DNA of 64,000 nucleotides, taken from IMG/VR virus record IMGVR_UViG_3300042569_003487, positions 1-64,000 of that record. The stretch is one strand, 5' to 3'. The position numbers and the translations under genes were made by a program. The stretch's first letter is position 1. The number at the start of each line of letters is the position of its first letter. Of the stretch, positions 2,863 to 56,942 are shown piece by piece. Below the pieces are notes generated by a model. The model worked only from the letters and a program-made list of their open reading frames with translations. It ran no database searches and had not been told where the DNA came from. This DNA comes from a virus.

Positions 2863-3288
2863 ATGAACAAGATTAAATCGTTTAATGAATACCTAGTAGA
2901 GTCTGCTGATATAGCTCAGCTTGCTCAAGACCTAGGTGGTACAGTAGAACCTGTAGAGGGCCAGACAGACTGGTCAGCAGTTAGAGGTTATCTAGATGTT
3001 AACCGTGAAAAACTTAAAGAAACCCTTATAAAGATAACTGGTGATAGAATAACTGCAATGGTAGTTATTAAGGTTGCCGATATCTATGCTGAAGACAAGC
3101 GTGATGGGGTAACTCCAAATCCAGACTGGTTAGGAGAAGCTCCAATTGTAGATGAAAACACGCCAGATCTACAAGAAATGGTTAAGGTGGTTATTGCGGC
3201 TATTCAGCGTAATCTAGCTAAATCAGATCAAGCTACCCTTGCTAAGTTGAGTACTGCAGGTAAAGGGATTAAAACCAGCCGTTATTAA
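2863..3288 (+). CDS. Putative capsid-targeted internal protein, 141 aa
   Basis: The N-terminus MNKIKSFNEYLVE/SAD matches the T4 internal-protein leader, with a predicted prohead-protease cut after E13 (LVE/S). The mature part is a soluble, mainly helical domain that I do not recognise, ending in basic KGIKTSRY. It is the first gene of a late operon with two more leader-bearing genes. The inference is a protein packaged in the head; its function after injection is unknown. Confidence 0.75.
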   Translation: MNKIKSFNEYLVESADIAQLAQDLGGTVEPVEGQTDWSAVRGYLDVNREKLKETLIKITGDRITAMVVIKVADIYAEDKRDGVTPNPDWLGEAPIVDENTPDLQEMVKVVIAAIQRNLAKSDQATLAKLSTAGKGIKTSRY

Positions 3289-3291
3289 CCT

Positions 3292-3795
3292 GTGAAGTAT
3301 ATTAAACCCTATCGACTAGTAGAATCCGCAGATCCTTTCTGGACAGGCTATGAAAGACTTGTTGATCTAGGTATGATTGATATTGAAGACTGGGTCAAGA
3401 TTAAAGATGATGTTGTCCTACTCGTTAAGGAGAGGCTGGCTAGTCACTATCCTGAATTGGATGTAGAGAAACTTGCATTTGATGAGATCCGTATCTATCA
3501 AAAGGGTAAAGGCGGCAGAGATCCTTATTATAGTGTCTATATTGATAAAGGCGTTAACCATAGTTATAAATTATGGAATTGTCGCTTAATAGTTCGTTTT
3601 CAAAACGCAACTGGCAGAGCTGACAGTAGTCGTCTTATTAAGGTACCCGATTATTTCTGGACCCGACCAATCGGAGGCTATGCAGATATTCCCGATACAG
3701 TAGCACAAAGTAAGTGGATAGCTGACGAAATTATTGGGTGGATGGAAGAGGTCTTTGTACCATGGATCGGCGTTGAAGTAAAAGAACAGGACTAA
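3292..3795 (+). CDS. Putative capsid-targeted internal protein, GTG start
   Basis: Translation likely starts at GTG 3292, 3 nt after the previous stop. This gives the leader MKYIKPYRLVE/SAD with a predicted cut after E11. Residues after the leader contain RLVDLGMIDIEDWVKIKDDV, a short helical motif also found in the genes at 3798, 9693 and 10390 and resembling the SHOCT helical pair. The rest (167 residues in all) is unrecognised and mixed alpha/beta. Head packaging is inferred from the leader, the operon and the late promoter upstream. Confidence 0.72.
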   Translation: MKYIKPYRLVESADPFWTGYERLVDLGMIDIEDWVKIKDDVVLLVKERLASHYPELDVEKLAFDEIRIYQKGKGGRDPYYSVYIDKGVNHSYKLWNCRLIVRFQNATGRADSSRLIKVPDYFWTRPIGGYADIPDTVAQSKWIADEIIGWMEEVFVPWIGVEVKEQD

Positions 3796-3797
3796 TT

Positions 3798-4403
3798 ATG
3801 AAGTATATCACTAAATTTAGATTATGGGAATCTCAAGAAGAGGTTGATACGGCTAAACGTCTCCTAGACCTAGGCCTAATGGAACCCCAAGATTATAAAC
3901 AAAAATTACGGGAGCTTGGTTGGGACAAGCGGTATCGTAGCCAATTTGTTGAAAACCTTGAAAAGCTATTTGTGGATCTAGGTTTGGAATGGAAAAACTG
4001 GGCAACCGATCGTCAAAAAGCAAACGGTACTGTACTCCTTAAATTTAGTCCAGCTGATGCAGCCGAGTTAATCTTTACTGCAACAGTACCCCCAGGTTTA
4101 ACACCACGTCAAGAGGCCCGATTCCAGAATATTAAGGAACGTCTCCTAAAGGTAAAGCGTGAAATGGAAATGGATGTGGAAGTTAGAGGCCGACTTGCCT
4201 TTGAATACTGGATTTTCCCAGGCTCATTCCGCCCAAGCGGTCACTTTGGCGAACCTACCTCTAGCCAAACTGTTAATTTTGATGGTTCCACTGATCCTCA
4301 ACACTCAATGGCCAGATTCCTCTACCAAGTTGCTCTTGATGCAGACGCAAAGGGCTGGATCTGGAATCCTCAGCACCCCCACTATAATTTTGCACGTCGC
4401 TAA
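3798..4403 (+). CDS. Putative capsid-targeted internal protein, 201 aa
   Basis: The leader MKYITKFRLWE/SQE predicts cleavage after E11. It is followed by the SHOCT-like segment RLLDLGLMEPQDYKQKL, shared with the preceding gene, so the two are probably paralogues that diverged downstream. The C-terminal part is soluble and not recognised. It is the last gene of the late operon and is followed by a hairpin terminator. Confidence 0.72.
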   Translation: MKYITKFRLWESQEEVDTAKRLLDLGLMEPQDYKQKLRELGWDKRYRSQFVENLEKLFVDLGLEWKNWATDRQKANGTVLLKFSPADAAELIFTATVPPGLTPRQEARFQNIKERLLKVKREMEMDVEVRGRLAFEYWIFPGSFRPSGHFGEPTSSQTVNFDGSTDPQHSMARFLYQVALDADAKGWIWNPQHPHYNFARR

Positions 4404-9692: not shown

Positions 9693-10103
9693 ATGAAATA
9701 CGCTAAACCCTTTACTCAATTTATAAGTGAAGCTCGAGCAGATATGACGCCAACTGAATTGGAAATGCTGGATAGAATCGAAGCTAGAACTAGAGAAGCT
9801 TATCCTGAAACCTCGCCTGACGAAAAGAAAATTGACTCCAGACTTAGAGACCTAGGTCTTGCTCCTAAAGAAGAGTTCGATGACCGTTGGGATAATATGG
9901 TCGACGAGTGGGGTAGTGATCCTGAAATTAGCCGCGCAATTGATGTACTTAAGTCTCGTACAAGTGCAATCATGAACAAATACATTGACTATGGCGATCC
10001 AGAAGATGAGGCCAATTACGATCAGCGTAGAGAATGGATTTGGGAAGCTTCAATCGATGATATTGGATTCTTAGAATTTATGATTGCCCAAGGCGATATC
10101 TAA
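9693..10103 (+). CDS. Putative capsid-targeted internal protein, 136 aa
   Basis: The leader MKYAKPFTQFISE/ARA is the closest in the window to the classic T4 internal-protein leader (FIxEA), with a cut after E13. The mature part is acidic and helical and includes RLRDLGLAPKEEFDDRW, the SHOCT-like segment shared with genes at 3292, 3798 and 10390. It ends in FLEFMIAQGDI and overlaps a convergent gene by 4 nt. Head packaging is inferred. Confidence 0.75.
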   Translation: MKYAKPFTQFISEARADMTPTELEMLDRIEARTREAYPETSPDEKKIDSRLRDLGLAPKEEFDDRWDNMVDEWGSDPEISRAIDVLKSRTSAIMNKYIDYGDPEDEANYDQRREWIWEASIDDIGFLEFMIAQGDI

Positions 10104-10318
10104 TTTTTAACTGGCACCTTACGTGCAACTTGCGGTTTTTCTATTTTTATTTTAATTGTGTCTCCAGCTTGATGAGGAGTTCGGCAATACACAGTTCCTT
10201 CAATACAGGTTTCTGCATCATATACATTATATTGGTAGGTACCTTGAAAATCTGGTGTACCTGTTCCAGATGTTACGATTAATACTAGATACGTAACAAT
10301 TTTTCCTAATTCTATCAT
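10100..10318 (-). CDS. Small protein with N-terminal hydrophobic segment
   Basis: The 72-residue protein has a hydrophobic stretch at residues 5-17, a short Gly/Thr linker, then a beta-rich domain with two cysteines (ETCIEGTVYC). It may be membrane-anchored or exported. The stop overlaps the end of the convergent gene. A GTATAAT box lies 6 nt upstream of the ATG. Confidence 0.5.
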   Translation of the reverse strand: MIELGKIVTYLVLIVTSGTGTPDFQGTYQYNVYDAETCIEGTVYCRTPHQAGDTIKIKIEKPQVARKVPVKN

Positions 10319-10324
10319 AATTCT

Positions 10325-10331
10325 ATTATAC
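10325..10331 (-). promoter_or_regulatory. GTATAAT box upstream of 10100-10318
   Basis: Minus-strand GGTATAATAG lies 6 nt before the ATG at 10318, the same short spacing as at 2361, 9627, 31697 and 39934. Confidence 0.5.
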
Positions 10332-10361
10332 CTAATCTCTGGTAAAGAGTATTAGATCTGG

Positions 10362-10368
10362 ATAAATA
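10362..10368 (+). promoter_or_regulatory. Late-type promoter box ATAAATA
   Basis: ATAAATAACTACAAATAA lies 21 nt (from the heptamer end) before the ATG at 10390. It would drive the four leader-bearing genes 10390-14583. Confidence 0.7.
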
Positions 10369-10389
10369 ACTACAAATAAGATATACTTA

Positions 10390-11019
10390 ATGTCATACTT
10401 CAAAAAATTTGGTGAATTTCTTAATGAAGATGAATCTTCGGAAGAACAATTAGCCAAACTAGCTAGATTAAAGGACCTTGGTTTGCTTGACACAGATCAA
10501 TATAGACAAGATTCCAAGAATATCCGAAAGAATGCAATGCTTGCTGCTAAAGACCGAGGAGACTATGCAGGAACAGCTCTTCCAGAAATTAGAGAAATAT
10601 TAGATTCTCCAGAAGCTCAACTACTAAGGGACAAAGGTCTTGAAGTAGTTTCAAGTCCAACTCAACTCTTAAATGGTACCCTTGTTTGGGCAAAACCTGG
10701 TTATAGAAGATCAGATGGTTGGGGTCTAGGATTTTTTCCTGGCCCAAGTAAAATACGCAGAATGACTCCAAAGGGAATTAATATTGGAGTATGGGGCCGC
10801 AGAGTAGGTTCAATGGATGTTGAAATGAAAGCTATTCCAAAATCAGCATATTCTAATGAGGCTGAATTTTATAGAGTTGCAATGAAGTGGGCAGCTGAAC
10901 ATATCGATTGGGATCAATTAGAAATGGCTGAAAGACAGAGCCGCGAAGCTTGGAGATATTACGTAAAAGGAAAAACAAAACAAGGTTATTTTAACGATGA
11001 GAATAATAGAATCATTTAA
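10390..11019 (+). CDS. Putative capsid-targeted internal protein, 209 aa
   Basis: The leader MSYFKKFGEFLNE/DES predicts a cut after E13. Next comes the SHOCT-like motif LKDLGLLDTDQYRQDS. The remaining 160 residues are mixed alpha/beta with many basic residues and aromatic patches (GWGLGFFPGPSK) and are not recognised. The end overlaps the next gene by 23 nt, so translation is probably coupled. First gene of a late operon ending with a strong terminator. Confidence 0.75.
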   Translation: MSYFKKFGEFLNEDESSEEQLAKLARLKDLGLLDTDQYRQDSKNIRKNAMLAAKDRGDYAGTALPEIREILDSPEAQLLRDKGLEVVSSPTQLLNGTLVWAKPGYRRSDGWGLGFFPGPSKIRRMTPKGINIGVWGRRVGSMDVEMKAIPKSAYSNEAEFYRVAMKWAAEHIDWDQLEMAERQSREAWRYYVKGKTKQGYFNDENNRII

Positions 11020-12628
11020 TAGCTGGAAACGTTCGGACAGACTCTTAAACGAGAATGTTCAGGCAGCTAAACAATATATGTTAAAACGTTTTGCTCAAGC
11101 AAAAGGAATTGAATCTTCTGAAATTACGCCAGAGGATCAAGCTAGAATTTTTGCAAATGAAGATTATAAAAAAGTTTTACAGTTAATTCAGCCACTTCCT
11201 GGTTATGCATCAACCTTTGTCAAATTTAAATTTGATCATAGAGTTTCATTTGAGCAATTAGCAGAATTGCTTGAGAAAATTAAAGCAAATTCCCAATTTT
11301 TAGGGGAATTATCAATGCCAATTATTGAATTTCCAAATCAAAAGGAAGTAAATGGAGTTTCTCCATTTGAGGCGCTAATAGATGAGTTTAATCAAATTGA
11401 AACCCGTCGTAAAGCAAAATGGATTCTTAACGAATTACCAGGAAATTTACGTAGAGCAGCTAGAGAATTACCAAAAGAAGATCTACAGAGACTTTTTAAT
11501 GCAGCAACTATTATGAATGATTTGGGTCAAGAAGTTAAAGTGCGTTTGTTAAAAAAGGCAAAGGCTTTTACTAATCCAATTGATTTTATAGTTTATGCTG
11601 AAAATTATGTTAAAGGTTACCTAAACTCTGACGTTCAAAGTAAAATTGATAAATTAGAACAATTAGAACCAGAAGGCTCTGTGATTTATGCAGATGATCG
11701 TTACCTAATGTTAAGCGCACGTACAGAAAAGGCGCAAAAGGAATTATGCTCAGTTGCAAACTGGTGTATTAATAGAGGAAGTTTTAATAATAGAGGTTAT
11801 GGTGGAAGCGCTGTACAAATTAATACATTTGATTTTGGTTTACCACCAACTGATCCTCATCACCTAATTGGTACAACTATTTCATATGAAGGAAAGGTTA
11901 CATATAGTCATGATATTAACGATAGGAGTGTTAAGACAACTGATGATATTGCAACACACCTTAAGAAATTTGGTTATCCGGATAAAATGATTAACACCTT
12001 AATTCAGGTTTTTCCAATCGAAGCCATGATTAAAAAGGTAATTACTGAACTTAGCATTGATAAAAAATCTCCGATTCAAGTTCTTGATTCAGTTATTAAA
12101 GCAAGCTATAAAGTAAATCCAGAAGACGATCAAGAATCAGCTAGAGTAATTCTTAATATCCTAATGGAGAGAATTGCACCGGCAGTTAAAGAAGAAGAAA
12201 TTATTGCACTTTACATGAAGTTTGGCGTAATGTCAATTTTCTCTGCTAAACTATTTAATATGTTATTACCTAATATTAATCCTCAAACAAGATCCGAGGT
12301 TATTCAAAATGCAAAGGCGATTCTTGATGAAATTAAAGGTTATGCAAGTACTGGTTTATTTAAATATCCACAATTGCTAAATGCAGTTAAGAGCGAACCT
12401 AAAATTATAGAATTACTTGGTGAAAGTATAGTAAATGAATTTTATGCAGCTGAACCTGCAATTAAAGAACCTACTACAAAACCTAAAGTAACTCCAAGAC
12501 CAGGTCCAATTCCAACTAAAAAACCATCAGTTAACCCTGAACCAAGCGCAACTGCAGAAGATGTAGTTAATGTATTTTTAGCTGAATTAAAAAAATTAGG
12601 TACTACACCAAAGGAATTCCTTAAGTAA
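10997..12628 (+). CDS. Putative capsid-targeted large internal protein, 543 aa
   Basis: The N-terminus MRIIESFNSWKRSDRLLNE/N fits a longer version of the leader; MRIIESF is shared with the gene at 22634-23710. A central segment (residues about 235-310) reads ELCSVANWCINRGSF and then glycine-rich beta strands (VQINTFDFG, TISYEGKVTYSHD). It brings to mind phage hypothetical proteins with a T-x-W-C motif, but this is a weak match from memory. The C-terminal 60 residues are proline/lysine-rich then helical. Co-transcribed with three other leader-bearing genes. Confidence 0.65.
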   Translation: MRIIESFNSWKRSDRLLNENVQAAKQYMLKRFAQAKGIESSEITPEDQARIFANEDYKKVLQLIQPLPGYASTFVKFKFDHRVSFEQLAELLEKIKANSQFLGELSMPIIEFPNQKEVNGVSPFEALIDEFNQIETRRKAKWILNELPGNLRRAARELPKEDLQRLFNAATIMNDLGQEVKVRLLKKAKAFTNPIDFIVYAENYVKGYLNSDVQSKIDKLEQLEPEGSVIYADDRYLMLSARTEKAQKELCSVANWCINRGSFNNRGYGGSAVQINTFDFGLPPTDPHHLIGTTISYEGKVTYSHDINDRSVKTTDDIATHLKKFGYPDKMINTLIQVFPIEAMIKKVITELSIDKKSPIQVLDSVIKASYKVNPEDDQESARVILNILMERIAPAVKEEEIIALYMKFGVMSIFSAKLFNMLLPNINPQTRSEVIQNAKAILDEIKGYASTGLFKYPQLLNAVKSEPKIIELLGESIVNEFYAAEPAIKEPTTKPKVTPRPGPIPTKKPSVNPEPSATAEDVVNVFLAELKKLGTTPKEFLK

Positions 12629-12629
12629 T

Positions 12630-13925
12630 ATGAAAACACTAAAACAATTTTTACAAGAGGCAAGTTTACAGGGAAATCCTGGAACACCCGATCAATACCT
12701 AAAGGGAGTTGAACGCAGAGCAATGCAAGATGTTCAAGGAACTGAACAAAGACTTGGAAGAGAAATGAGTCAGTTTATGCAATTTGTTTCTCAAGTGCAA
12801 AGAATGCAAACTCCTCAAGTTAAAGCACAATTAGAAAAACTTGCAGAAGATATTATAATGAAAGAGTACGGATCAATCCTAACTCAAACTAAATTAAGTA
12901 TTAAATTTGCAAAGGCTGGAGAAATCCAACAAATGATGGAAGAGGTTCCTATGGAAACACCAGAACCCCAAAAAGAAATTGAAGATCAGGCAACTATTTC
13001 AAAAATCCATGCTAGAAAAATTGGTAACGCAATTATGCAAGGCGAGGCTAAAAATGCAAAGCGTATGTTAGCTTTACCTGAAACCATGGATGGTATGATT
13101 AAAATTTTTGGACCAGCTGACGCTGCAAAAATGGTAGATCTTCTTAAGAAAATTACAGACATTGCCTCTGCTCTTGATTGGAGAATTCCAATGGAAGTTC
13201 AAAAGCAAATGTGGGAAAGAGATAAAGGCGGATTTAGTGGATCAGTTAAAGTTGATTTTAAACCAGTTGAAGCTGACGAAAAAACTGCAGAGGATCTTAT
13301 TAAATCTCTAGAAAGTGGTGATCTTGAAACTCAAGAAATAGAAGATACTTTAAATGAAATGGAGCCTACTATTACTGCAATTGGTACAGATTTTGCAATG
13401 CTACTTCATGAAGCAATTAAAGGAATCTATAAATTAATTGGAACTGCTTCTATTCCAGATGATGAAGAAGAAGCTGGAAAGGTTGTTGCAAATACTGGAA
13501 CACTTAGTGATGAATTAGAAGATTTAAGATATGGACCCTACTTAGCAGCAGATCTTAGAGATTTTGTAAATCGATTTACCAATTCAAGTTCAGTTGAAAA
13601 TATCAGAGAACACGTTTTTGGAAAATTAATGATTCTTGCAAAAGAGGAAACTCAAGCATTTTTACAATTAATGAAAGAAATTTTTACTGAAGATGCTGGA
13701 GCAATTAATAAAATGAAATCGATTGTTTCAGAAATTGAACAAGAAATTAAGGATTGGGAACGCAGTCAATTTGATGAAGAGGTTCCAGACCTTGGAGTTG
13801 AACCGGCTGCCACTGAAACTGACCCATCTCAATTAAGTAAAAAGGAAATTCAAGCCTTAATTGATGCAGCACTAGATGCTGGAGATTACGCTGAAGTTGG
13901 AAAACTTGCAAAATATTTAGATTAA
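12630..13925 (+). CDS. Putative capsid-targeted helical protein, 431 aa
   Basis: The leader MKTLKQFLQE/ASL predicts a cut after E10. The body is almost entirely helical and acidic with a methionine/glutamine-rich early part. It ends with a segment (IQALIDAALDAGDYAEVGKL) like the helical UVR-type ends of several small proteins here. Its composition resembles T4 core or internal head proteins rather than an enzyme. It starts 1 nt after the preceding stop. Confidence 0.7.
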   Translation: MKTLKQFLQEASLQGNPGTPDQYLKGVERRAMQDVQGTEQRLGREMSQFMQFVSQVQRMQTPQVKAQLEKLAEDIIMKEYGSILTQTKLSIKFAKAGEIQQMMEEVPMETPEPQKEIEDQATISKIHARKIGNAIMQGEAKNAKRMLALPETMDGMIKIFGPADAAKMVDLLKKITDIASALDWRIPMEVQKQMWERDKGGFSGSVKVDFKPVEADEKTAEDLIKSLESGDLETQEIEDTLNEMEPTITAIGTDFAMLLHEAIKGIYKLIGTASIPDDEEEAGKVVANTGTLSDELEDLRYGPYLAADLRDFVNRFTNSSSVENIREHVFGKLMILAKEETQAFLQLMKEIFTEDAGAINKMKSIVSEIEQEIKDWERSQFDEEVPDLGVEPAATETDPSQLSKKEIQALIDAALDAGDYAEVGKLAKYLD

Positions 13926-13926
13926 T

Positions 13927-14583
13927 ATGAAAATTCAAAGATTTAAACAATTTATAAATGAAAGCGAGGAATATCTCGATGAACCTGCAAAAGAAATGTT
14001 TAATGAGCTTCTAACTCAAATTGCAGATGAAATAGACGGTCAATCTGGCTGGATGGCTTCTGTAAATGAAAACTCTAGTACCCTACGTATTGACCAAGAT
14101 TGGAATATTGATGATTTAAACTATGAAGGCGATGAGCCTAGAGTTTATGCAAGTTATACTGCAACCTTTAAAATTGCTTTTCAAGATGATTCAACTCAAT
14201 TATCCCCAGAAGTAGTTAGACTTTGGAAATTAGGATTAGCGCCAATTACTGAATTAATTAAAGGATTCGATCATATTTGGGGTTTTAGTATTGATTCAAA
14301 GGATGTCCCAGAATTAGATATTCAAGAAGGAAATAGCGAATTTGAGTTTATGTCAATTGAAGATTTGACTGGAGGCGCAACTGCTGATTTAACTGATATT
14401 GAAGCTTTTGCAACTGACTTAATTGAAACTCTTAATGGTTGGTTAGACGAACAAACTTATATGTTACACGATAGAGTTCAAGAAGAATTAGACATGATTT
14501 CTGGTTATGGTGATGACGACGAAGAAGAGGATGACGATGATTATGAAAACGATGATGACGATTTTTCTGAAGACGAAATTTAA
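13927..14583 (+). CDS. Putative capsid-targeted acidic protein, 218 aa
   Basis: The leader MKIQRFKQFINE/SEE predicts a cut after E12. The mature protein is strongly acidic and ends in about 30 residues made mostly of D and E. Such tails could act as DNA mimics or scaffold parts. The gene is last in the late operon from 10390 and lies before a terminator. Confidence 0.72.
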   Translation: MKIQRFKQFINESEEYLDEPAKEMFNELLTQIADEIDGQSGWMASVNENSSTLRIDQDWNIDDLNYEGDEPRVYASYTATFKIAFQDDSTQLSPEVVRLWKLGLAPITELIKGFDHIWGFSIDSKDVPELDIQEGNSEFEFMSIEDLTGGATADLTDIEAFATDLIETLNGWLDEQTYMLHDRVQEELDMISGYGDDDEEEDDDDYENDDDDFSEDEI

Positions 14584-15889: not shown

Positions 15890-16741
15890 ATGCAAAATAT
15901 GCAAGTTAGACAATTTACAGACTGGTTAGGCGAAGCAGTGGCTCCAGCAAAGACTTATACAAAAAAGCTTTCTGAGCTTAATCCGCAGCGAAAATACATT
16001 GGAGATACCTATAATACAGATCTTTTTTTAAGATTTAAACACCTGGCTTCAATTAGAGACAAACATGGAAAAAGAATTGGTGTTGAGAAATGGTTTGAAC
16101 TTGCCCAACTTGAAGATAAGGGATTCTATTCTGCTGTATTGGCTGACCAAATGGGACAGCCCGATGTTCGCGAACTTTGGAGAGATATGATGGGCAGAAA
16201 TGCAAGTAAAGTTAAAGGTCAAGTTAATTTTAAAGATCCATTTAAAGGGAACGAAGATACTGAAGATGAAGTTAGAGATTTAAGTCTAAGTGAAAGCGTT
16301 GAAGAACCTATTACAATGCAGTCAAATCTAGATTCAACTTGGACTTTAGTTATTACTTATCCAAATGATTCATTATATGCTAAAGCTCAGCCATACTTTG
16401 AAAAGCTTGGAATTGCATTTGCAAATTTGGCAACCCAAACTGTTTATTTTGATGGATCGGAAGTAAGCGAAGCCTATTTCACAAAGGATCATATGCTTGC
16501 AGTTGAAGCACATGAAATTGGACACTCTATTGCAAATCATCAAGGGGAACCGTATTATTCTAAAAGACAGGAACAAGAAGCAGACTTTATTGGAATCAAT
16601 TTGCTAATTCAAAATTCTTTAACTAAAGCTGCAAATATTCTAGCAGAAAGATTCTCAAATCATTATAATATTGAATATACAAAACTGGCTGATTCTGAAC
16701 AACTTACTGAACTACTAGAAGATTACTTACTAGATAAATAA
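15890..16741 (+). CDS. HExxH metallopeptidase-like protein with capsid-targeting-like leader
   Basis: The leader MQNMQVRQFTDWLGE/AVA predicts a cut after E15. The C-terminal half contains VEAHEIGHSIANH, with the zinc motif HEIGH at residues 208-212, and about 18 residues later RQEQEADFIG with E230, the usual place of the third ligand in gluzincin-type peptidases. A peptide-cleaving enzyme is therefore likely. The middle (residues 60-150) is helical and unrecognised. Late box upstream and membrane protein downstream. If packaged, it would be a protease delivered into the host or envelope. Confidence 0.7.
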   Translation: MQNMQVRQFTDWLGEAVAPAKTYTKKLSELNPQRKYIGDTYNTDLFLRFKHLASIRDKHGKRIGVEKWFELAQLEDKGFYSAVLADQMGQPDVRELWRDMMGRNASKVKGQVNFKDPFKGNEDTEDEVRDLSLSESVEEPITMQSNLDSTWTLVITYPNDSLYAKAQPYFEKLGIAFANLATQTVYFDGSEVSEAYFTKDHMLAVEAHEIGHSIANHQGEPYYSKRQEQEADFIGINLLIQNSLTKAANILAERFSNHYNIEYTKLADSEQLTELLEDYLLDK

Positions 16742-17091: not shown

Positions 17092-17352
17092 TTATTTTAA
17101 AATGCTTGTAATGTAGTGTCCTATAAAACAGTGGATTCTGGGTATTCCAAGTTTCCGTCTAAAGGAATTTTCTAAATCGGTAAGCGGACTTGCTCCTCCG
17201 GCCCAAATAAAATTTATAAACATAAAAATTATTGGAAATGCAAACCACGCCGGAACGTGTAGAAGTAGGTGAGGTAGAGTTGCGGCCATTCCAAAAAGAA
17301 GGATTCCATGTAGAATCGAGGTTAGGACTAAGCCAATTTTATATTGTGTCAT
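17092..17352 (-). CDS. Membrane protein, DUF2784-like end
   Basis: An 86-residue protein with two hydrophobic segments (about residues 6-30 and 34-52), followed by SPLTDLENSFRRKLG. That stretch resembles the conserved CPLTxLExxLR signature of the DUF2784 membrane family, here without the cysteine. It overlaps the preceding gene by 4 nt. Function unknown. Confidence 0.5.
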   Translation of the reverse strand: MTQYKIGLVLTSILHGILLFGMAATLPHLLLHVPAWFAFPIIFMFINFIWAGGASPLTDLENSFRRKLGIPRIHCFIGHYITSILK

Positions 17353-17537
17353 TTGAGAGGGTCTATGTAGAACTTTTTATAATCATAAAGATCAGCACAC
17401 TTTTCATATTCCTCTCTGGATTCTAGCCAGTGAATTACTTCATCTATCTTAGACCAGTATTTGGAATTATATCCATACTTATCAAGGTCTTTATAGATTT
17501 TTTCCATTTCCTCATCAGACGAGAGCTGCTTTGCCAT
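17349..17537 (-). CDS. Small UVR-like helical protein
   Basis: A 62-residue charged protein ending in HWLESREEYEKCADLYDYKK, which resembles the UVR helical hairpin (E-x-E-K-C/A-A-D/E-L). Similar tails occur at 2048, 28655 and 51466. It overlaps the upstream HDAC-like gene by 23 nt. Confidence 0.6.
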   Translation of the reverse strand: MAKQLSSDEEMEKIYKDLDKYGYNSKYWSKIDEVIHWLESREEYEKCADLYDYKKFYIDPLK

Positions 17538-18483
17538 ATGAATGTTTGGGCTGTACCTTTATAGTATATTTAACCTCAAGGTCCAACAAATTATTCATAC
17601 ACTCAACAAAGTCCGCAGTGTGCAGATTTAATACACTTTGATAATCGTCTTTTCGATATCCTCCAAAGAGAGCACAACTTACAGGAAGAGGCCGCCCTAA
17701 TTTTTCATCCATCGATTTTACCCAATTCCAAAAAATTGTAGAGCACTCTAACCATTGTTCGGTTGAACACTGAAATCCTAAATCATCCCATTCATGTGAA
17801 TCTGCTCCATGACACCATACAACATATCCAATCTGACCATCTATAATAGCTTCTTCTAGATTTTGCAAATTCCATTTTAGATCATTAATATAAATTTGAC
17901 CTCTTCCAGTTGGATTAATATTAAATTCTTTTGGAATGGCCCTATTTAAATCCTTGACAAAATCTCTAGAATCTTCAATTGAATTTCCAAAATGACCATC
18001 TAAATCTAAATATGCACCACTTATACCAAATTCTTCTAGGATTTTAATTGATGCAATAACTTGTCCGCTAAATGTACAAAAGCCACTTCCTCCAGTTGGT
18101 CGAGCATGGTGAAATCCGCTAGTTGGACTAAAGTGAATTTGTTCTGGTTCTAATATAGATCCTTTTATTGCAGCGTGCAGTGATGCATTAGTGTAGCGAA
18201 CAGAGTCTGCGAATTGAGTAGACCAATCTAGACCATTTGATTCGCAGCCCCTTTGACCACTAAAAAATGAATTAACATATTGTTTGTTGTGGGCAATTTT
18301 AAAATCCTTATTTGTATATGGGGTAAAATCTTCAACTATTTCAAAATGTTTAATTAGTCCCTCTGCTTCAAAATTTTCAAGTAACCTCTTTGGCTTTAGC
18401 GGAGACTTACTAAAATTGCCTCCAGAGTCCTTTGCCAAGACCTGTTTAGGTGAATAGTGTACTTTAATTGTGTTTTTTCTCAT
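17515..18483 (-). CDS. Histone-deacetylase-superfamily enzyme
   Basis: The 322-residue protein carries the ordered motifs of zinc HDAC/AcuC/polyamine deacetylases. These are GFHHARP with the tandem histidines H125-H126 followed by GGSGFCTFSG, YLDLDGHFGN with zinc ligands D162 and H164, CHGADSHEWDDLG with ligand D228, and LFGGYR with the catalytic-pocket tyrosine Y276. All key residues are present, so it should be active as an amidohydrolase that removes acetyl or similar groups from amines. The substrate in a phage is unknown; acetyl-lysine proteins, acetyl-polyamines or a modified nucleotide are options. Its start overlaps the upstream stop by 4 nt (ATGA). Confidence 0.85.
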   Translation of the reverse strand: MRKNTIKVHYSPKQVLAKDSGGNFSKSPLKPKRLLENFEAEGLIKHFEIVEDFTPYTNKDFKIAHNKQYVNSFFSGQRGCESNGLDWSTQFADSVRYTNASLHAAIKGSILEPEQIHFSPTSGFHHARPTGGSGFCTFSGQVIASIKILEEFGISGAYLDLDGHFGNSIEDSRDFVKDLNRAIPKEFNINPTGRGQIYINDLKWNLQNLEEAIIDGQIGYVVWCHGADSHEWDDLGFQCSTEQWLECSTIFWNWVKSMDEKLGRPLPVSCALFGGYRKDDYQSVLNLHTADFVECMNNLLDLEVKYTIKVQPKHSYGKAALV

Positions 18484-18677
18484 AATCCTTGTAATACTGT
18501 AATACTAGAAATGGCCGAGACCAACTGGTCTAAGCTTTCTATAGTTAATAATACCAAAAAATCTGTAAAAGTGGCACCTGGGTATTCATATTCAATTATA
18601 CCCTCTAGCTGCTCTAGGGCTACCCTGGTGACTGCCAGGGACTCATTTGGAACCCTAATTAGGTAACTAGTCCTCAT
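18480..18677 (-). CDS. Small hypothetical protein, GC-rich codons
   Basis: I choose the ATG at 18677 (MRTSYLIRVPNES), giving 65 residues; a start at 18701 is also open. Its stop overlaps the start of the HDAC-like gene, and its start overlaps the end of the preceding gene by 11 nt, which supports a real gene. The coding strand contains CCWGG pentamers at 18577, 18624 and 18635 and looks more GC-rich than its neighbours. Function unknown. Confidence 0.5.
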   Translation of the reverse strand: MRTSYLIRVPNESLAVTRVALEQLEGIIEYEYPGATFTDFLVLLTIESLDQLVSAISSITVLQGL

Positions 18678-19404
18678 CGTCATCATCGTCCAGGAGGTCA
18701 TCTGTATTATCGAGTTCGATCTCTTTCTTTAAGAGTTCCATTTCTTCAACATATTCCATTAATTCAGAAAACGATAATTTAGATTCTTTATTTAGTTCAT
18801 CAATCATTTGCTGTTTATCTTCTGGCGATCCATATCTAGATATCTCAGAAAGAAATCCAGAAATAATGTCAAATAGTGTCCATCTGCGCTCAGCCTCAAC
18901 TGCAATTTGATAAGTTCTATCATCTGGTATATCAAGAGCAGTTTGTTCGCATATGGTAAATTGACAAATATCTCTTAATCTAATAAAATCTAACTCTGTA
19001 ACTACATCTGAATCACTACCCTGAATTGCGCTTATTCCAAGGATATTTGGAACAATATCTAAAATTGTCATATCGGAGGCAGCAATCATTCTAACCTTCC
19101 ATGCAAGTTCAACATAGTCAATCGCTGGCGATTTAACCGATAAAATTTGAGTTTCTTGTAAAAATAGATCAAAATCTACTCCATTTAAATATCCATCAAA
19201 TACCTGGTTAATTTCATCAGTAAAGTCTCCAAGAACCTCCAAAAAGGTTTTGATTGTAATATTTTCGTCAAACTCAGCAAAATATCCAAAAAAGCTCGAA
19301 AGTCTTCCTGTAATTTGGGTTTGATTGGTTGGCTGGTTTGTGGTCAAATCCCAGTCAACTAGATAGAACCCGTCCTGCTTTATTAAAATACTTTTGTGTA
19401 ACAC
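18667..19404 (-). CDS. Acidic helical hypothetical protein, 245 aa
   Basis: A soluble, mostly helical, acidic protein ending in about a dozen Asp/Glu residues. No cysteine-rich motif, signal peptide or membrane segment is visible. It is the first gene of the minus-strand group 19404-17092 that includes the HDAC-like enzyme. No family is recognised. Confidence 0.65.
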   Translation of the reverse strand: MLHKSILIKQDGFYLVDWDLTTNQPTNQTQITGRLSSFFGYFAEFDENITIKTFLEVLGDFTDEINQVFDGYLNGVDFDLFLQETQILSVKSPAIDYVELAWKVRMIAASDMTILDIVPNILGISAIQGSDSDVVTELDFIRLRDICQFTICEQTALDIPDDRTYQIAVEAERRWTLFDIISGFLSEISRYGSPEDKQQMIDELNKESKLSFSELMEYVEEMELLKKEIELDNTDDLLDDDDDED

Positions 19405-22051: not shown

Positions 22052-22650
22052 TTTAATTCTTCTATCTTGTCAATCATCCAATCGGCGTTGACGGGTTTAT
22101 AACCTGTTATACACGCACAAGCTGACATAGTTCCCGCTAATGGGTGAACGTGAGCGTGTGAGTGTCCATATAAGTGATAGGCTCCACGATATTTACCATT
22201 CCATTCGTAAAGAGGATAGTGAAATAGGACAAATCTTTTAAGACCCCATTCGCTGTCATCTTTAACCATGATTTCTTTGTAGTTTGTAAATTCTACAATA
22301 TCCATTATTGCGCTTAAATTATAGAGCCATGCTTGATCTATGTGAAGATCATGGTTTCCAATAATCCAGTGAACTTTTCCAGGAAGTTTTCCAAACTTTC
22401 CTAGGTTTTCACGAATGTGTTTGAATTTAGTTCTCTCCATTGCAAGATCACCTAAGAAAAAAACATGATCATCCGGTCCTACCGTTTCATGCCAGTTTTT
22501 GGCAATTGCATGATCGTGTTCTTTTATATCAGAAAAGTTGTGTAAGCCTTGTTCGAATCGTAAGACATTTCCATGTCCTATGTGTAAATCGCTAATGAAC
22601 CAAGTTGTGGCTCTGTCAAATGTGTTTTCTGTACTAAATATTTGTTCCAT
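22021..22650 (-). CDS. Calcineurin-like metallophosphoesterase
   Basis: The classic metallophosphoesterase motifs are present: FISDLHIGH (DxH), FFLGDLA (GD), WIIGNHDLH (GNHD), FVLFHYPL and YGHSHAHVH (GHxH). Members use two metal ions to split phosphomono- or diesters. At 209 residues it is a minimal single-domain enzyme, close to the phage and bacterial YfcE/icc-like group. The substrate is unknown. It is in an overlapping operon between a nucleotidyltransferase and a nuclease, which points to nucleic acid or nucleotide processing. Confidence 0.85.
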   Translation of the reverse strand: MEQIFSTENTFDRATTWFISDLHIGHGNVLRFEQGLHNFSDIKEHDHAIAKNWHETVGPDDHVFFLGDLAMERTKFKHIRENLGKFGKLPGKVHWIIGNHDLHIDQAWLYNLSAIMDIVEFTNYKEIMVKDDSEWGLKRFVLFHYPLYEWNGKYRGAYHLYGHSHAHVHPLAGTMSACACITGYKPVNADWMIDKIEELKCKLETQSSE

Positions 22651-23710
22651 CTAATAGTTTATTACTAACATACTCGAATGCAGTTTCAGCGTCGTGCATT
22701 ACTTTATCTTTCTGTTGGTTAGCTAAATCAGTTAAGGCTTTATCGTATTTAGATGAGGTTCTGTGTTTATGTAGTTTTTGTGCATAGATCTTAACAACCT
22801 CTTCTAAAAATTCCTTTGAACTATTATACTTAAAATTTGGTAAATCGTATGTACCAGTTTTTTCAAGAGTTCTGGCAAATCCTAAAATTCCATTACAGAT
22901 TTGTTCAAGTGAAAGTTGAGTTACATCAATTCCAGGGTGTTCATTTAGATAATCATCAATTACAAGTTCGCGTTTAGTACCTGCAAACTCATCAACAAAT
23001 TCTGCAAGGTGAAGAATAAATTTAGAAAAATCTCTAGTAATAATTTTTTCTTCAACGTCTTTGCGCATATTAGGTCCAACTAATTCGCCATTCTTAATTT
23101 TAGCAACAACTCCACGATCTGTAACTGAAACATCAAGCGCATTACCAAATGATTGATATAGGAACCCTACAACAAATCCTTTTACACCTCTAATTGGAGT
23201 ATATCTAGATTTTGCCCATTCTGCAGAATAGGTAAAAGTTGGAATAATATCTACCTGAACTGGGCCGTCTTTTAAATTAATTACAAGTTTAAGACTACCG
23301 TCAGAAATTGCATCGCTTTCTTCTGCATCAATTTCGGGTTGGGGATTTTCTTGAATCCACTTTAACATAAGTTGATTGTACTCTTTCATTGTATCAATTT
23401 CAACTCTCCTTGATTGAGGTTCAGTTAAAGGATATTCAACTAAAATATCAACATCACCATATGCTTTATCTGGGTTTTCTGTCATGTCTTGTTTAAAATA
23501 AACACCAGATCCACCTGGACCGAGCACTTTTAGTGGAGCCATTTCTAGTGACTTTGCGTACTTATTAAATTTAGAAAAAATCATTTCTAAAACTGAGACA
23601 GATTCTTCCAGCACAGCTGGCGTAATTTTAGTCCCCTGAGTTTTTGTGGTTGCCCAACCTCCCATTTCCTGTATTTTTAAAAATCCTTGAAAAGATTCAA
23701 TAATTCTCAC
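22634..23710 (-). CDS. Nucleotidyltransferase-fold protein with leader-like N-terminus
   Basis: GTG start at 23710 gives MRIIESFQGFLKIQE/MGG, close to the leader of the gene at 10997. The likely catalytic signature of the pol-beta nucleotidyltransferase fold follows: GPGGSGVYF (residues 64-72), YGDVDILVEY with D86 and D88, and PVQVDIIP with the third aspartate. Such enzymes move NMP groups to proteins, RNA or small molecules. A paralogue-like gene lies at 57711. The C-terminal half is helical and unrecognised. A late box lies 20 nt upstream. Confidence 0.65.
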   Translation of the reverse strand: MRIIESFQGFLKIQEMGGWATTKTQGTKITPAVLEESVSVLEMIFSKFNKYAKSLEMAPLKVLGPGGSGVYFKQDMTENPDKAYGDVDILVEYPLTEPQSRRVEIDTMKEYNQLMLKWIQENPQPEIDAEESDAISDGSLKLVINLKDGPVQVDIIPTFTYSAEWAKSRYTPIRGVKGFVVGFLYQSFGNALDVSVTDRGVVAKIKNGELVGPNMRKDVEEKIITRDFSKFILHLAEFVDEFAGTKRELVIDDYLNEHPGIDVTQLSLEQICNGILGFARTLEKTGTYDLPNFKYNSSKEFLEEVVKIYAQKLHKHRTSSKYDKALTDLANQQKDKVMHDAETAFEYVSNKLLDGTNI

Positions 23711-23729
23711 TGTAATTAAGTAATTTTAG

Positions 23730-24287
23730 TTATTTATCGAAACCTAGCTTCTTTAGCTCTGCAATAGTTTCCTTGGCACTAGTATGTAAAATGCCAGTTC
23801 CACCGGCTGCAATCCAAGCATCAAGTTTCTTTGGCGTATCATCAATTAAAATATCCTGAGGCCCTGTTGCAAATTCAAATTTGTTACCATAGAAAATAGT
23901 CTTTTCTTTACCTGTCCAGTCTTCCTTTTTTGTAATATATGGAAAATCCCAATTTAAATTTTTCTTAAGCCATTTAGCTTTACCGGTAATTGACTTTGGA
24001 TCAAGCGACGGTGAAGATAAGATAGTTGGGTTAAACTTTCTAATAAAAGACCAAAGGTCAATACCATCAGTCATCCATTCCATGCCTGCCCAAAATGCCT
24101 CGCCGGCTTTTCCAACAAGTTTCCAACTTGCATTTTTTGAATATTCCCTTTGAAATTCTTCGATAGTCATGCCAGCTTCCTTTTCAAACTGGGAATCCCA
24201 ATCTGAAAGTACTCCATCCATGTCGCAAAAGATTCTCATTGGTTGAACACTCTCGTTAAATTGTGTGTATAGCTTAATGTGTTGCAT
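23730..24287 (-). CDS. HAD-family 5'-nucleotidase with capsid-targeting-like leader
   Basis: After an N-terminal extension MQHIKLYTQFNE/SVQ comes RIFCDMDGVLSDW with the HAD nucleophile D22 and general acid D24. Then TILSSPSLDP, KEDWTGKEKTIFYG and QDILIDDTPKKLD follow, as in the NT5C deoxyribonucleotidase group. These enzymes remove phosphate from (deoxy)nucleoside monophosphates. The normal start of the fold would be M17, so the 16-residue extension is extra and fits the leader pattern, although P3 is F rather than L/I. The ATAAATA box is only 4 nt before the ATG. Confidence 0.78.
   Translation of the reverse strand: MQHIKLYTQFNESVQPMRIFCDMDGVLSDWDSQFEKEAGMTIEEFQREYSKNASWKLVGKAGEAFWAGMEWMTDGIDLWSFIRKFNPTILSSPSLDPKSITGKAKWLKKNLNWDFPYITKKEDWTGKEKTIFYGNKFEFATGPQDILIDDTPKKLDAWIAAGGTGILHTSAKETIAELKKLGFDK
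23731..23737 (-). promoter_or_regulatory. Late-type promoter box ATAAATA
   Basis: Minus-strand ATAAATAAC lies 20 nt before the GTG at 23710, inside the end of the preceding gene. Confidence 0.6.
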
Positions 24288-24291
24288 ATTA

Positions 24292-24298
24292 TATTTAT
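24292..24298 (-). promoter_or_regulatory. ATAAATA box with short spacing
   Basis: Minus-strand ATAAATATA lies 4 nt before the ATG at 24287. If used as a -10 box, the transcript would be leaderless. Confidence 0.4.
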
Positions 24299-25095
24299 TG
24301 TTGTAGACTTGGAACCCAATGTGTAGTTCTGCCGTCTGCTGTTTTTTCTCTAATTACTATATTTCCATGAGGATCTGCACTCTTTCCATAGACTTCAAAT
24401 TCAAAAACAAAGTCGCCAGTTTCACCAGTAACTTGTTGATAATTTCTAATACTTGCTCCGCCCTGTGCATATGACGCCCTACTAATTAATTTAGAATAGT
24501 CCCATAGTAATTGAATCTCATTATCGGTAAGATCCTTAACCAATCTATGCGGGGAAATCTTAGAACGATATAACATTTCACATTTAATATAGTTTCCAAT
24601 TCCTGCAAAAAGCCTCTGGTCCATTAGCGCTTCTACAACAGTTTTATTTGGAACCCTCTCGAATGATCTAATCGTATTATAAACAGATGCAGTTGTGTCG
24701 TTTAGCGCATCAACTCCTAGGGTTTTTAATTTTGCGTCCAATTCAACCTTACTTGCAAACTTAAGGGTACCGAATCGGCGCTGATCAATAAAAAACAGTT
24801 CAAGACCATCATCAAATGAAAGTTTAATGTGTGCATGTGGTTTTTGATAGATTGACCAAAACCCGCTCATTCCCAATGTAATCCAGATAGACATGGCGCC
24901 TTCCAATTCTAACCAGATGAATTTGCCTTTAACTCCGCCTCCAACTACCTCCAGGGGCAGCTCCAGGGCTCCCAGGCCAACTGGGGGAGTCTTTAAGAAG
25001 CGTCCACCAAGTATTTCTACACTAGTTAGTTTTCTATTAATACAATAATTTCGCAAACCTTCATATACGCGTCTGCACTCTGGTCCTTCTGGCAT
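24295..25095 (-). CDS. mutM: Formamidopyrimidine-DNA glycosylase / Nei-like
   Basis: It starts MPEGPE, the Fpg/Nei signature in which P2 is the catalytic nucleophile and E3 assists. The middle has the helix-two-turn-helix region (VVEALMDQRLFAGIGNYIKCE), and QGGASIRNY follows. The C-terminal hairpin (VYGKSADPHGN ... GRTTHWVPSLQ) has the Fpg finger layout and its arginine, but all four zinc cysteines are missing, so it is a zincless finger as in NEIL1-type enzymes. It removes oxidised bases and nicks DNA. Codons for residues 40-48 contain three CCAGG-type pentamers. A GTATAAT box lies 15 nt upstream. Confidence 0.9.
   Translation of the reverse strand: MPEGPECRRVYEGLRNYCINRKLTSVEILGGRFLKTPPVGLGALELPLEVVGGGVKGKFIWLELEGAMSIWITLGMSGFWSIYQKPHAHIKLSFDDGLELFFIDQRRFGTLKFASKVELDAKLKTLGVDALNDTTASVYNTIRSFERVPNKTVVEALMDQRLFAGIGNYIKCEMLYRSKISPHRLVKDLTDNEIQLLWDYSKLISRASYAQGGASIRNYQQVTGETGDFVFEFEVYGKSADPHGNIVIREKTADGRTTHWVPSLQQ
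24951..24976. repeat. Small CCAGG cluster inside a gene
   Basis: CCAGG occurs at 24951, 24963 and 24972 inside the glycosylase gene, spaced 12 and 9 bp, repeating the style of the island at 2371-2820. Confidence 0.5.
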
Positions 25096-32308: not shown

Positions 32309-32791
32309 CTATTCGATAGTTTCAATTAAACGTTGAGCAATTATCTGTTGAGATCTTGATAATTTTTCAACTGCTTCTTGGAATGGAATAAATCCAGCCC
32401 AATCTACCTCCTCGGCTTGTAGTTGTTCTTTAGGTAATTTAGGCGAATCGAGGCCAATTTGTTCAAGACTCTCAATGTGTACCTCAAAATAAGCGCAGCG
32501 ACTGTGAGGAATACCGCGACGGTAAAATACAAAATATTTCTCATTTTTATCAATTAGTTCTGGATCTACCGTAACCCCGGTCTCTTCTCTAGTTTCACGA
32601 ATTGCGCAAGTTAAAAGATCTTCACCTAGTTCAATTCCTCCTTTAGGAATTCCAAAAGGTTGATTTTTCCAACTTGCATTTGATGGATGAATTAATAAAA
32701 GCTTTCCTTCCCAGATAATAGCGAGGCCGGCTGCTCTAATTTCAAGCTGCTTTTCGCTTTCTGCTAAATAGTCTGTGAAGGTAAAAATCAT
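32309..32791 (-). CDS. NUDIX hydrolase with capsid-targeting-like leader
   Basis: The NUDIX box is complete at residues 51-73 (start GGIELGED, then RETREETGV), matching G-x5-E-x7-REUxEExGU. The family splits nucleoside diphosphates linked to another group, for example oxidised dNTPs, alarmones or NAD-type compounds. In front of the fold sits MIFTFTDYLAE/SEK, with a predicted cut after E11. The ATG overlaps the bS21 stop (ATGA). If packaged, the hydrolase would act right after injection. The substrate cannot be read from the sequence. Confidence 0.85.
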   Translation of the reverse strand: MIFTFTDYLAESEKQLEIRAAGLAIIWEGKLLLIHPSNASWKNQPFGIPKGGIELGEDLLTCAIRETREETGVTVDPELIDKNEKYFVFYRRGIPHSRCAYFEVHIESLEQIGLDSPKLPKEQLQAEEVDWAGFIPFQEAVEKLSRSQQIIAQRLIETIE

Positions 32792-32982
32792 TTATTATTT
32801 ACATCTCGCTTTTTTTGAATGTACTTTGCTTTATTAATTTCAGAACGACGCTTTACACTAGGCTTTTCGAATTCTTTACGGTCACGTAAGTTTTGTAATT
32901 GCTTAGTGTCAATAACCTTTCGCTTAAGTATTTTTAGAGCTCGCTCTAATGAGTCTGAATTTTTTATATCAATAATTAGCAT
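32788..32982 (-). CDS. rpsU: Ribosomal protein bS21 homologue
   Basis: I choose the ATG at 32982 (MLIIDIKNSDSLERALK), 4 nt after the previous stop, giving 64 residues. The sequence follows bS21 closely: an N-terminal strand, LERALKILKRKVIDT, then EFEKPSVKRRSEINKAKYIQ, with the conserved basic helix and the KPSxKRR core. bS21 sits near the anti-Shine-Dalgarno end of 16S rRNA, and in Bacteroidota it helps sequester that end. A phage copy could replace host bS21 and shift initiation toward phage mRNAs. It lies in a late block between an S74-domain protein gene and the NUDIX gene. Confidence 0.88.
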   Translation of the reverse strand: MLIIDIKNSDSLERALKILKRKVIDTKQLQNLRDRKEFEKPSVKRRSEINKAKYIQKKRDVNNK

Positions 32983-32986
32983 TAAC

Positions 32987-34597
32987 TTAAATTTGTTTAA
33001 AGTCAACATCAATTAAATCATAATTAACTGAATAAAAATCATCTTCTAGGATTACCGCAGATTCAAATTTTGTTCCAATTAATTCTTGGGCCATTACCCC
33101 TTGATAATATCCCTCTTTATCTTTATATTTAAATGAATAAATGTTTAGACCGCTTTCTGACGTACCTATTAAATTAATATCGTCCTTTAGTCTAGAGTCC
33201 GACATAATTCCACCAACGGCTGGGTCATTGGGGTTAGATTGAGTAACTTTTGCTGGTGCAGCTGGTATGCTACTTAGAGCCTTTTCTAAAACATCTCCAC
33301 CTAATGCATTCAAATCTGATACAGCCTTAAACCAAGCCTCATCGCCAGAACCCTTTCCACCATCTGCTTCAAGCGCACTAATCGGAAAAGACTTTCCATT
33401 TGTCGATTGGAGTGGAGAAATATATTTTTCATAAGTCGACTTCCACTCTGAACTAACTTCTCCTAATATGTAATCGCTTAGACTTAAACTATTTGGAATA
33501 TTAATACCAGCAGTTTTAGCATAACCGTTAAGAGTATTTAGAGCAGATTGTCTTAGTCCTATTAATATTGCATAAAATGCTTGGGCTTCAGATGTATCAA
33601 AATTTGTACTGGACATGGCCTTTTCTACTTTATATGAGATGTAGTCATAACCAGAGGTAAATGTTGCATCCTTTGCAGGATCTCCTTTCTTACCTACTAC
33701 AGAATTACCTAAGTCTGCGATTGAGGCAAATGGCACAGAATCTATTCCGGGCGCAAACTGTGAATATATTTTATTTGTAACTGGCCAATACCCAGCTGTG
33801 TATTTACGAAGTGAGCTAGCATCAATTGTCATATCTTTTTTATTAATAAAGCCAGCCGGCTTAGTAAACACTTCGTAACCTTTACTTTCTAATTTGGTTT
33901 TAATTAAAGAGTATAGAGCCGGGCTCTCTGTTTTTAAATTAAACATTCTCATATAAAAATACCAAGATAGGTTGATACTTCTTCTTGAAAAGGAAGATAC
34001 TACTGCATTTAATTCAAGCTCACTACTTGGAACAACGCTTACATTAGTCTTTTCAATTTTACCGGTTGCTAAATCTATAATCTCAGACTGTCCGCCCAGT
34101 CCAGTTATTGTAAGCTTGCCGCTACCAATTGTATAAGTTCCACTATACAAATACGGAATATCCGTTGCAGACTTTTTCCAGTGAACTATTACTTCCTGTC
34201 CGCCTTCTGTTTTAAAAATATATTCTTTATCAGTTTTAACTGGAGTTTTACTTGTAGGAGAATATACTTCTCCACCAGTCGAAGTCCATGCTACAGCCCA
34301 AGGCCAAGGTTCTTTAATAGTTTTATCTGTTCCAACTTTAACTCCATCTTGATCATGTAGAATACTGCCTGGTAATTTCAATAGAGATACCCACGGCTCC
34401 TTATCTTTAAGTTCAGAGCGAGTGTCAGTAGGAGCGGGATCAGTATCAGTATCTGTGTTAGTATCATCCTTTCTAGTTCTCCTCCCTTTACCGTCAGCTG
34501 GTTGTGTAGTTGGAGTAGTAATAGTTCCACTTTGAAGAGCGCTAAGATCAGGTGGACCTTGCTCTAATAAAATAGATATCGATTTAATTTTCTTCAT
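32987..34597 (-). CDS. Leader-bearing virion protein with C-terminal S74 chaperone domain
   Basis: The N-terminus MKKIKSISILLE/QGP fits the leader (cut after E12). After a Thr/Pro-rich linker comes a long unrecognised middle. The last 72 residues read SDSRLKDDINLIG, LNIYSFKYKD, YYQGVMAQELIG and YSVNYDLIDV. They match the peptidase S74 intramolecular chaperone, which trims itself at the SD before RLK after helping trimers fold. S74 domains normally end tail spikes and fibres, so the pairing with a head-targeting leader is unusual. A late box lies 16 nt upstream. Confidence 0.8.
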   Translation of the reverse strand: MKKIKSISILLEQGPPDLSALQSGTITTPTTQPADGKGRRTRKDDTNTDTDTDPAPTDTRSELKDKEPWVSLLKLPGSILHDQDGVKVGTDKTIKEPWPWAVAWTSTGGEVYSPTSKTPVKTDKEYIFKTEGGQEVIVHWKKSATDIPYLYSGTYTIGSGKLTITGLGGQSEIIDLATGKIEKTNVSVVPSSELELNAVVSSFSRRSINLSWYFYMRMFNLKTESPALYSLIKTKLESKGYEVFTKPAGFINKKDMTIDASSLRKYTAGYWPVTNKIYSQFAPGIDSVPFASIADLGNSVVGKKGDPAKDATFTSGYDYISYKVEKAMSSTNFDTSEAQAFYAILIGLRQSALNTLNGYAKTAGINIPNSLSLSDYILGEVSSEWKSTYEKYISPLQSTNGKSFPISALEADGGKGSGDEAWFKAVSDLNALGGDVLEKALSSIPAAPAKVTQSNPNDPAVGGIMSDSRLKDDINLIGTSESGLNIYSFKYKDKEGYYQGVMAQELIGTKFESAVILEDDFYSVNYDLIDVDFKQI

Positions 34598-34613
34598 TTT
34601 AATAAAATTTTAT

Positions 34614-34620
34614 TATTTAT
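34614..34620 (-). promoter_or_regulatory. Late-type promoter box ATAAATA
   Basis: Minus-strand ATAAATAATAA lies 16 nt before the ATG at 34597. Confidence 0.6.
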
Positions 34621-56921: not shown

Positions 56922-56942
56922 CTACTGTATTTTTCTAGGTGA

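Follow-up and report, generated by a model that had tools for sequence, protein, structure and literature searches.

The solved structures closest to the enzyme described here belong to two bacterial proteins of the histone deacetylase (HDAC) fold, HdaH of V. cholerae (9gky/9gkv; cluster 5b of Graf et al. 2024, PMC11532494) and HDAC11 of Leptospira interrogans (9gz5; class IV clade B, PMC13325672). Both are class IV (HDAC11-like) enzymes of cluster 5 of Graf et al., which includes Bacteroides and Spirochetes (PMC11532494). The acyl 'foot' pocket is lined by the residue that precedes the GGY motif and by the three that precede the last residue-HH step; acetyl selectivity and polyamine enzymes are associated with RPPGHH/EGGY, and long acyl chains with GGGFHH/SGGY or SGGYHH/GGGY (PMC11532494). 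Peptide deacylation in class IV clade B is associated with a bulky gatekeeper residue and with a Glu at the rim by which the peptide backbone is held (PMC13325672). The de-decanoylase activity of HdaH on peptides is just weak (PMC11532494), and the clade A enzymes have none of that peptide activity.

Among viruses, acetylpolyamine amidohydrolases of the same superfamily are encoded by the giant viruses Klosneuvirus, Tupanvirus and Hyperionvirus, and their activity has been measured (PMC9992855). In phages, gp202 of Rhodococcus phage E3 is publicly annotated as a 'putative histone deacetylase'. Huge phages are known to carry tmRNAs, and for one group of them, the Mahaphages, the predicted hosts are Bacteroidetes; the main text of that work does not mention a deacetylase (Al-Shayeb et al. 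2020).

The locus analyzed here is a window of 64,000 nucleotides (positions 1 to 64,000) of a 141,925-base IMG/VR virus record, IMGVR_UViG_3300042569_003487. The record is that of a phage, as it encodes a terminase large subunit, an ATP-dependent DNA ligase and a PD-(D/E)XK exonuclease, all within the window, and an N-acetylmuramoyl-L-alanine amidase. The features of the window are listed in Table 1.

Table 1. Features of the window (strand in parentheses where assigned)
Feature	Position	Strand	Remarks
HDAC-fold amidohydrolase gene	17515..18483	(-)	322 aa; ATG start; no internal stops
73-aa ORF	18480..18701	(-)	directly upstream of the deacetylase; kept in the closest phages only
245-aa protein	18667..19404	(-)	first gene of the same-strand run; fast-evolving
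62-aa ORF	17349..17537	(-)	overlaps the deacetylase 3' end; adjoining in 12 phage loci
283-aa protein	15890-16741	(+)	weak M48-type metalloprotease match (HEIGH motif); kept in 28 related loci
Fpg/Nei-type DNA glycosylase	24295-25095	(-)	complete gene
Terminase large subunit	51736-53694
tmRNA gene	56455-56924		ARAGORN; Rfam RF00023, 97.4 bits against a cut-off of 47; adjoins the terminase region
ORFs with a shared N-terminus (about 19)	2863-4403, 9693-14583, 15890, 19485, 22634-24287, 32309-36287, 57711		M(K)xxxxFxxF/Y(I/L)xE(S/A)

The original prediction was that the gene encodes a complete enzyme of the HDAC fold with all of its metal and catalytic motifs intact, and both parts were borne out. 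The open reading frame is full-length, and its product matches Pfam PF00850 (Hist_deacetyl) with an E value of 8e-16 and 58.6 bits (cut-off 27.9), in addition to sequence matches to solved HDACs. In an alignment of 72 homologues, H125, H126, D160, D162, H164, D228 and Y276 are invariant, and position 167 is N in 69 sequences and D in the other 3. By alignment position, the zinc ligands are D162, H164 and D228, the catalytic pair is H125/H126, and the relay residues are D160 and N167. Failure of the fold prediction had been named as a result that would count against the enzyme; instead, an AlphaFold (AF2) model built on the 72-sequence alignment had a mean pLDDT of 92.8 and a pTM of 0.93, the rim loop L2 being poorly aligned and lower in confidence (pLDDT about 81). 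Foldseek comparison of this model with the PDB gave HDACs as top matches, with E values of 5e-15 to 2e-14 and TM scores of 0.71 to 0.78. A signal peptide was not seen in the sequence, and so the enzyme looks cytoplasmic.

The first five Foldseek matches were V. cholerae HdaH (with decanoic acid) and L. interrogans HDAC11, and the same two enzymes (9gz5 and 9gkv) ranked first in a profile search of PDB sequences. Giant-virus HDAC-fold proteins in BFVD matched the model with a best E value of only 5e-11, and so the class IV structures in the PDB match better; the giant-virus enzymes also differ in acting on polyamines and in belonging to viruses of eukaryotes. In a tree of 83 sequences, the HDAC6-type enzymes split off, the class IV references formed one branch, and the phage and bacterial families formed an adjoining branch; the 55-member family of the window protein, itself supported at 100/100, lay on the class IV side. 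The tree contained no class I references. Because it was rooted at the midpoint and includes several long reference branches, the enzyme is more safely labeled class-IV-like than class IV, as opposed to polyamine-type or class I/II.

Comparison with the two bacterial enzymes shows where the window protein departs from them. It shares with HdaH the fold (TM 0.71-0.77), the catalytic residues, the absence of long L1/L2 insertions, of the RPP motif and of the rim acid, and a 'WS' in loop L2, whereas the identity over the structural alignment is 18-19% and the motifs GGGY, FNDL and AGVD of HdaH read FGGY, FSGQ and HGAD in the window protein. L. interrogans HDAC11, the best PDB profile match, likewise has a Phe gatekeeper before HH and a Ser at the position that ends the foot pocket (S94), but it is about 18% identical, and neither its rim Glu nor its HPFD-type loop is found in the window protein, where Phe273 replaces Ala.

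The signature of the window protein is 121-TSGFHH-126, 135-FCTFSGQ-141, 225-HGADSH-230 and 273-FGGYR-277. All 55 close members of the family have FSGQ, where the other HDACs compared have FN(G/D/N) or LND; all 55 also have Ser168, which is Gly in the other HDACs, and Trp87, Trp244 and a Phe273 directly before GGY, which the others lack. Arg277 after GGY is likewise found in all 55, and V. cholerae HdaH also has Arg there. His225 of the HGAD motif is present in 54 of the 55, and the gatekeeper position 124, F124 in the window protein, is Phe in 38 and Met in 17. The conserved rim acid (Glu94 of HDAC11, Asp101 of HDAC8) is missing from the window protein.

Set against the described groups, these residues place the enzyme apart. 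The loop that is HPFD in clade B reads SKSPLKP, the rim Glu94 is absent, and position 84 is mostly Gly, Ser or Asn. In place of the Arg-Glu pair that shuts the foot pocket of clade A there are Ser94 and Thr98, and the gatekeeper is Phe/Met124, not Thr/Ser. The motifs TSGFHH and FGGY stand where the acetylpolyamine amidohydrolases of cluster 4 have RPPGHH and EGGY, and a long L2 insertion was not seen in the alignment, from which cluster 4 sequences were absent. Because it combines TSGFHH, FGGY and a bulky F124 with the lack of a rim acid, the window protein appears from its sequence to fall outside the definitions of the acetylpolyamine amidohydrolases, of clade A and of clade B alike.

This reading of the pocket bears on what is removed. 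The foot pockets of the closest structures are occupied by decanoate and dodecenoate, the window protein has no RPP motif, and its bulky gatekeeper F124 resembles that of the active clade B enzymes, all of which would suit a long-chain fatty deacylase that, like human HDAC11, takes medium or long acyl chains off lysines. However, the invariant Phe273, at a position taken by Gly, Ala or Ser in the long-chain enzymes, should fill the pocket, and the clade B HPFD motif and rim Glu are absent, which makes this activity very improbable.

An acetylpolyamine deacetylase, which would free spermidine or putrescine from its inactive acetylated form for phage replication, has a measured viral precedent in the giant-virus enzymes (PMC9992855). 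The closest long-contig relative, a phage of 217 kb (G008), encodes an AdoMet decarboxylase-like protein, which weakly backs a polyamine link, and Saprospiraceae homologues of the deacetylase adjoin metK (named from sequence). Nevertheless, the RPPGHH motif common to bacterial polyamine deacetylases is replaced by TSGFHH, and the affinity is to class IV and not to cluster 4. G008 is also the only one of 12 other deacetylase-encoding phages with AdoMet decarboxylase, the window's record has none, and spermidine synthase was not found, so that linkage to a polyamine pathway was rejected as too weak. A survey of acetylpolyamine amidohydrolases likewise reported homologues from giant viruses and none from phages (PMC9992855). 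We therefore regard a polyamine substrate as improbable.

The same residues affect the case for a protein lysine deacetylase, which would strip N-epsilon-acetyl groups from host or phage proteins and thereby rewire or protect proteins of translation, transcription and metabolism during infection. Lysine deacetylation is the commonest activity of the HDAC fold (PMC11532494), phages do alter host acetylation, for example by the GNAT Rac of phiKMV-like phages (PMC7552054), and the apparently cytoplasmic location would suit such a role. On the other side, the rim acid that holds the backbone is not conserved. An acetyltransferase of the PF00583 family is absent from the window's record and from 11 of 12 other deacetylase phage records, and so there is no evident phage-encoded partner of opposite activity, and a partnership with a phage acetyltransferase (found in the remaining one of the 12) was rejected. 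Deacetylation of protein lysines is a possible role, but a doubtful one.

Among the candidate substrates, small acetyl-amines or exposed acetyl-lysine would fit the pocket best. It is also possible, though we think it unlikely, that the FSGQ/FGGYR family is a distinct functional branch that hydrolyzes some acylated small molecule or modification of Bacteroidota not previously known, and that large phages keep and trade the gene since the modification limits infection. In this reading the active site has been remodeled, with Phe273, Ser139, Gln141 and Ser168 invariant and His225 nearly so.

The gene is maintained by selection. Relative to homologues of 88-90% identity, dN/dS was 0.08-0.10 (about 0.09), which shows that the deacetylase is under purifying selection. 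Independent viral contigs hold these orthologues in one and the same gene order, which, with a dN/dS of about 0.09, puts the gene far beyond chance. Across the phage group of the window, the deacetylase is 62-66% identical, whereas the 245-aa protein encoded upstream is about 20% identical; its gene precedes that of the deacetylase in 32 loci of the group. The predicted structure of this 245-aa protein (pLDDT 80) had no match in the PDB, and reading the deacetylase's function from this upstream partner was rejected for that reason. The stop codon of the intervening 73-aa ORF and the start of the deacetylase share 4 bases (ATGA), and because of this overlap the two are probably translationally coupled. 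A scan for promoters and terminators gave values near those of shuffled sequences.

The gene neighbors differ in other phage groups, and in bacteria they differ by lineage and are mostly not co-directional, so a conserved bacterial operon was rejected. In four Pontibacter and Rufibacter loci (L105, L106, L112 and L135), the deacetylase lies within a conserved run consisting of an extra FtsZ/tubulin-like protein (3 of the 4 loci), a 165-173-aa protein, the deacetylase, a pentapeptide-repeat protein and often a NUDIX protein, and in Rufibacter the 165-173-aa protein is fused in frame to the deacetylase. By analogy, this run recalls the eukaryotic pairing of HDAC6 with tubulin; a tubulin/FtsZ link suggested by this Hymenobacteraceae operon was rejected, as none of 13 phage records with the deacetylase contained a tubulin-family gene. 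In many loci from MAGs of Bacteroidota (among them Flavobacteriales and Crocinitomicaceae; L109, L114, L118, L119, L122, L123, L128, L131, L133, L139, L143, L147, L151 and L168), the deacetylase is divergent from genes for a vWA-like protein of about 220 aa and a protein of about 380 aa, neither of which matched Pfam.

An exonuclease, a phosphoesterase and the DNA glycosylase in the neighborhood could be taken to indicate a counter-defense or nucleic-acid role, in which the enzyme takes off an acyl group that a host toxin or defense enzyme has attached, or one on a modified nucleoside. No PADLOC model matched the enzyme or the neighbors tested and no known defense gene was linked to it; moreover, the family is scattered on the chromosomes of Bacteroidota, Myxococcota and Spirochaetota, which argues for a general metabolic role. 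A role of this kind therefore seems to us extremely improbable.

Other features of the window were also noted. The predicted tag of the tmRNA (VKADLEHLIVVDLYRGRKSWSNRSELY) is long and lacks the ALA-type ending that is usual, and for this reason it may be a miscall or an unusual tag. The N-terminus shared by the ORFs listed in Table 1 resembles the capsid-targeting sequence of T4 internal proteins, and these ORFs may encode head proteins that are injected with the DNA. This N-terminus, present in many neighboring ORFs, is absent from the deacetylase, and virion targeting of the enzyme was rejected.

HDAC-like enzymes had been predicted to be uncommon in phages. This held for isolates, as about a dozen of 50,697 INPHARED records matched any HDAC-fold query used, perhaps in part because of contamination by host DNA, but it did not hold for large environmental phages, as a scan of IMG/VR with two short motifs gave at least 212 related viral loci. 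The INPHARED matches include Rhodococcus phage E3 (twice), Microbacterium phage Magritte and four huge-phage assemblies, among them LR756501, LR756503 and LR756504 (735, 735 and 636 kb). Although phage-encoded and of the same fold, E3 gp202 is about 27% identical to the window protein, lies outside the FSGQ/FGGYR family in another gene neighborhood, and comes from a phage of an actinobacterial host. A motif scan of GTDB species genomes gave at least 350 loci, the best 80 of which are mostly from Bacteroidota, together with Myxococcota, Leptospiraceae and Planctomycetota.

The deacetylase keeps its place in 30-odd large-phage contigs, with one copy per phage record examined, some of them reported as two pieces. 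In a tree of 112 sequences, phage and Bacteroidota genes interleave, with at least 12 switches between phage and bacterium labels; these labels are those of the source collections, in which misfiled contigs are possible, and L090, filed in a Bacteroidetes MAG but having the gene order of the window's phage, was counted as phage. Five Saprospiraceae-type genes are nested within the clade of the window's phage in this tree. The switching between phage and Bacteroidota genes and these Saprospiraceae-type genes make a member of the Bacteroidota the probable host of the window's phage.

Variant phage copies were also observed. In the 595 kb phage LR756511 (L010, 5959-6498), the deacetylase frame breaks after about 165 residues, and tblastn gave two joined pieces spanning 96% of a relative; this is either a sequencing error or a degraded copy. 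In L045 (5001-6143), the deacetylase has a C-terminal extension that by eye resembles a UBA/EF-Ts-type domain, for which there was no Pfam call. A second phage family (L060-L089; FCTFNGL and AGGYQ) is 26-32% identical to that of the window, and its gene is often located directly after the tail sheath and tail tube genes, as judged by reading the sequences without a profile.

Taken together, the fold, the intact and invariant catalytic residues, the purifying selection, the class IV affinity and the repeated phage-host exchange are the computed support for a model that we hold with moderate confidence. The window protein would be catalytically active as a Zn2+-dependent deacylase with the arginase/deacetylase fold, on a class-IV-like side branch common to Bacteroidota and their large phages; it would act on a short-acyl substrate that it does not grip by the peptide backbone. 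In the infected cell, the enzyme would bind an acylated amine, Zn2+ held by D162, H164 and D228 would activate water with H125/H126 as the acid-base pair, and Y276 would stabilize the oxyanion, with release of the free amine. As read from aligned sequences, the acyl group would be short and acetyl-like, because the invariant Phe273 replaces the Gly, Ala or Ser that lines the HDAC11-type foot pocket. On the same basis, the substrate would be a small acetyl-amine or an exposed acetyl-lysine, without a grip on the peptide backbone, because the rim acid is missing. A point against the model is that HdaH, likewise devoid of the rim acid, is weakly active on peptides and the clade A enzymes are inactive on them, so that the window enzyme may be without peptide activity. 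The phage enzyme would be an auxiliary copy of a function that the hosts already have.

The HDAC kind of enzyme and one annotated phage member, Rhodococcus phage E3 gp202, are already known. In the literature searched, to which most subscription papers did not belong, we found no account of large bacteriophages recurrently carrying genes for HDAC-fold enzymes, and no model in PHROGs or NCBIfam matches the family. The bacterial part of the family may already lie within the clusters of Graf et al. under another label, because cluster 5 lists Bacteroides and Spirochetes. As far as these tools show, what is new is that large phages and Bacteroidota have a conserved class-IV-like family in common, that this family has its own active-site signature, and that it has been exchanged repeatedly. 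If the enzyme is active, phages of Bacteroidota would manipulate acyl modification by means of a class-IV-like enzyme, and the conserved yet altered pocket offers a concrete route to the substrate of a poorly understood branch of the HDACs.
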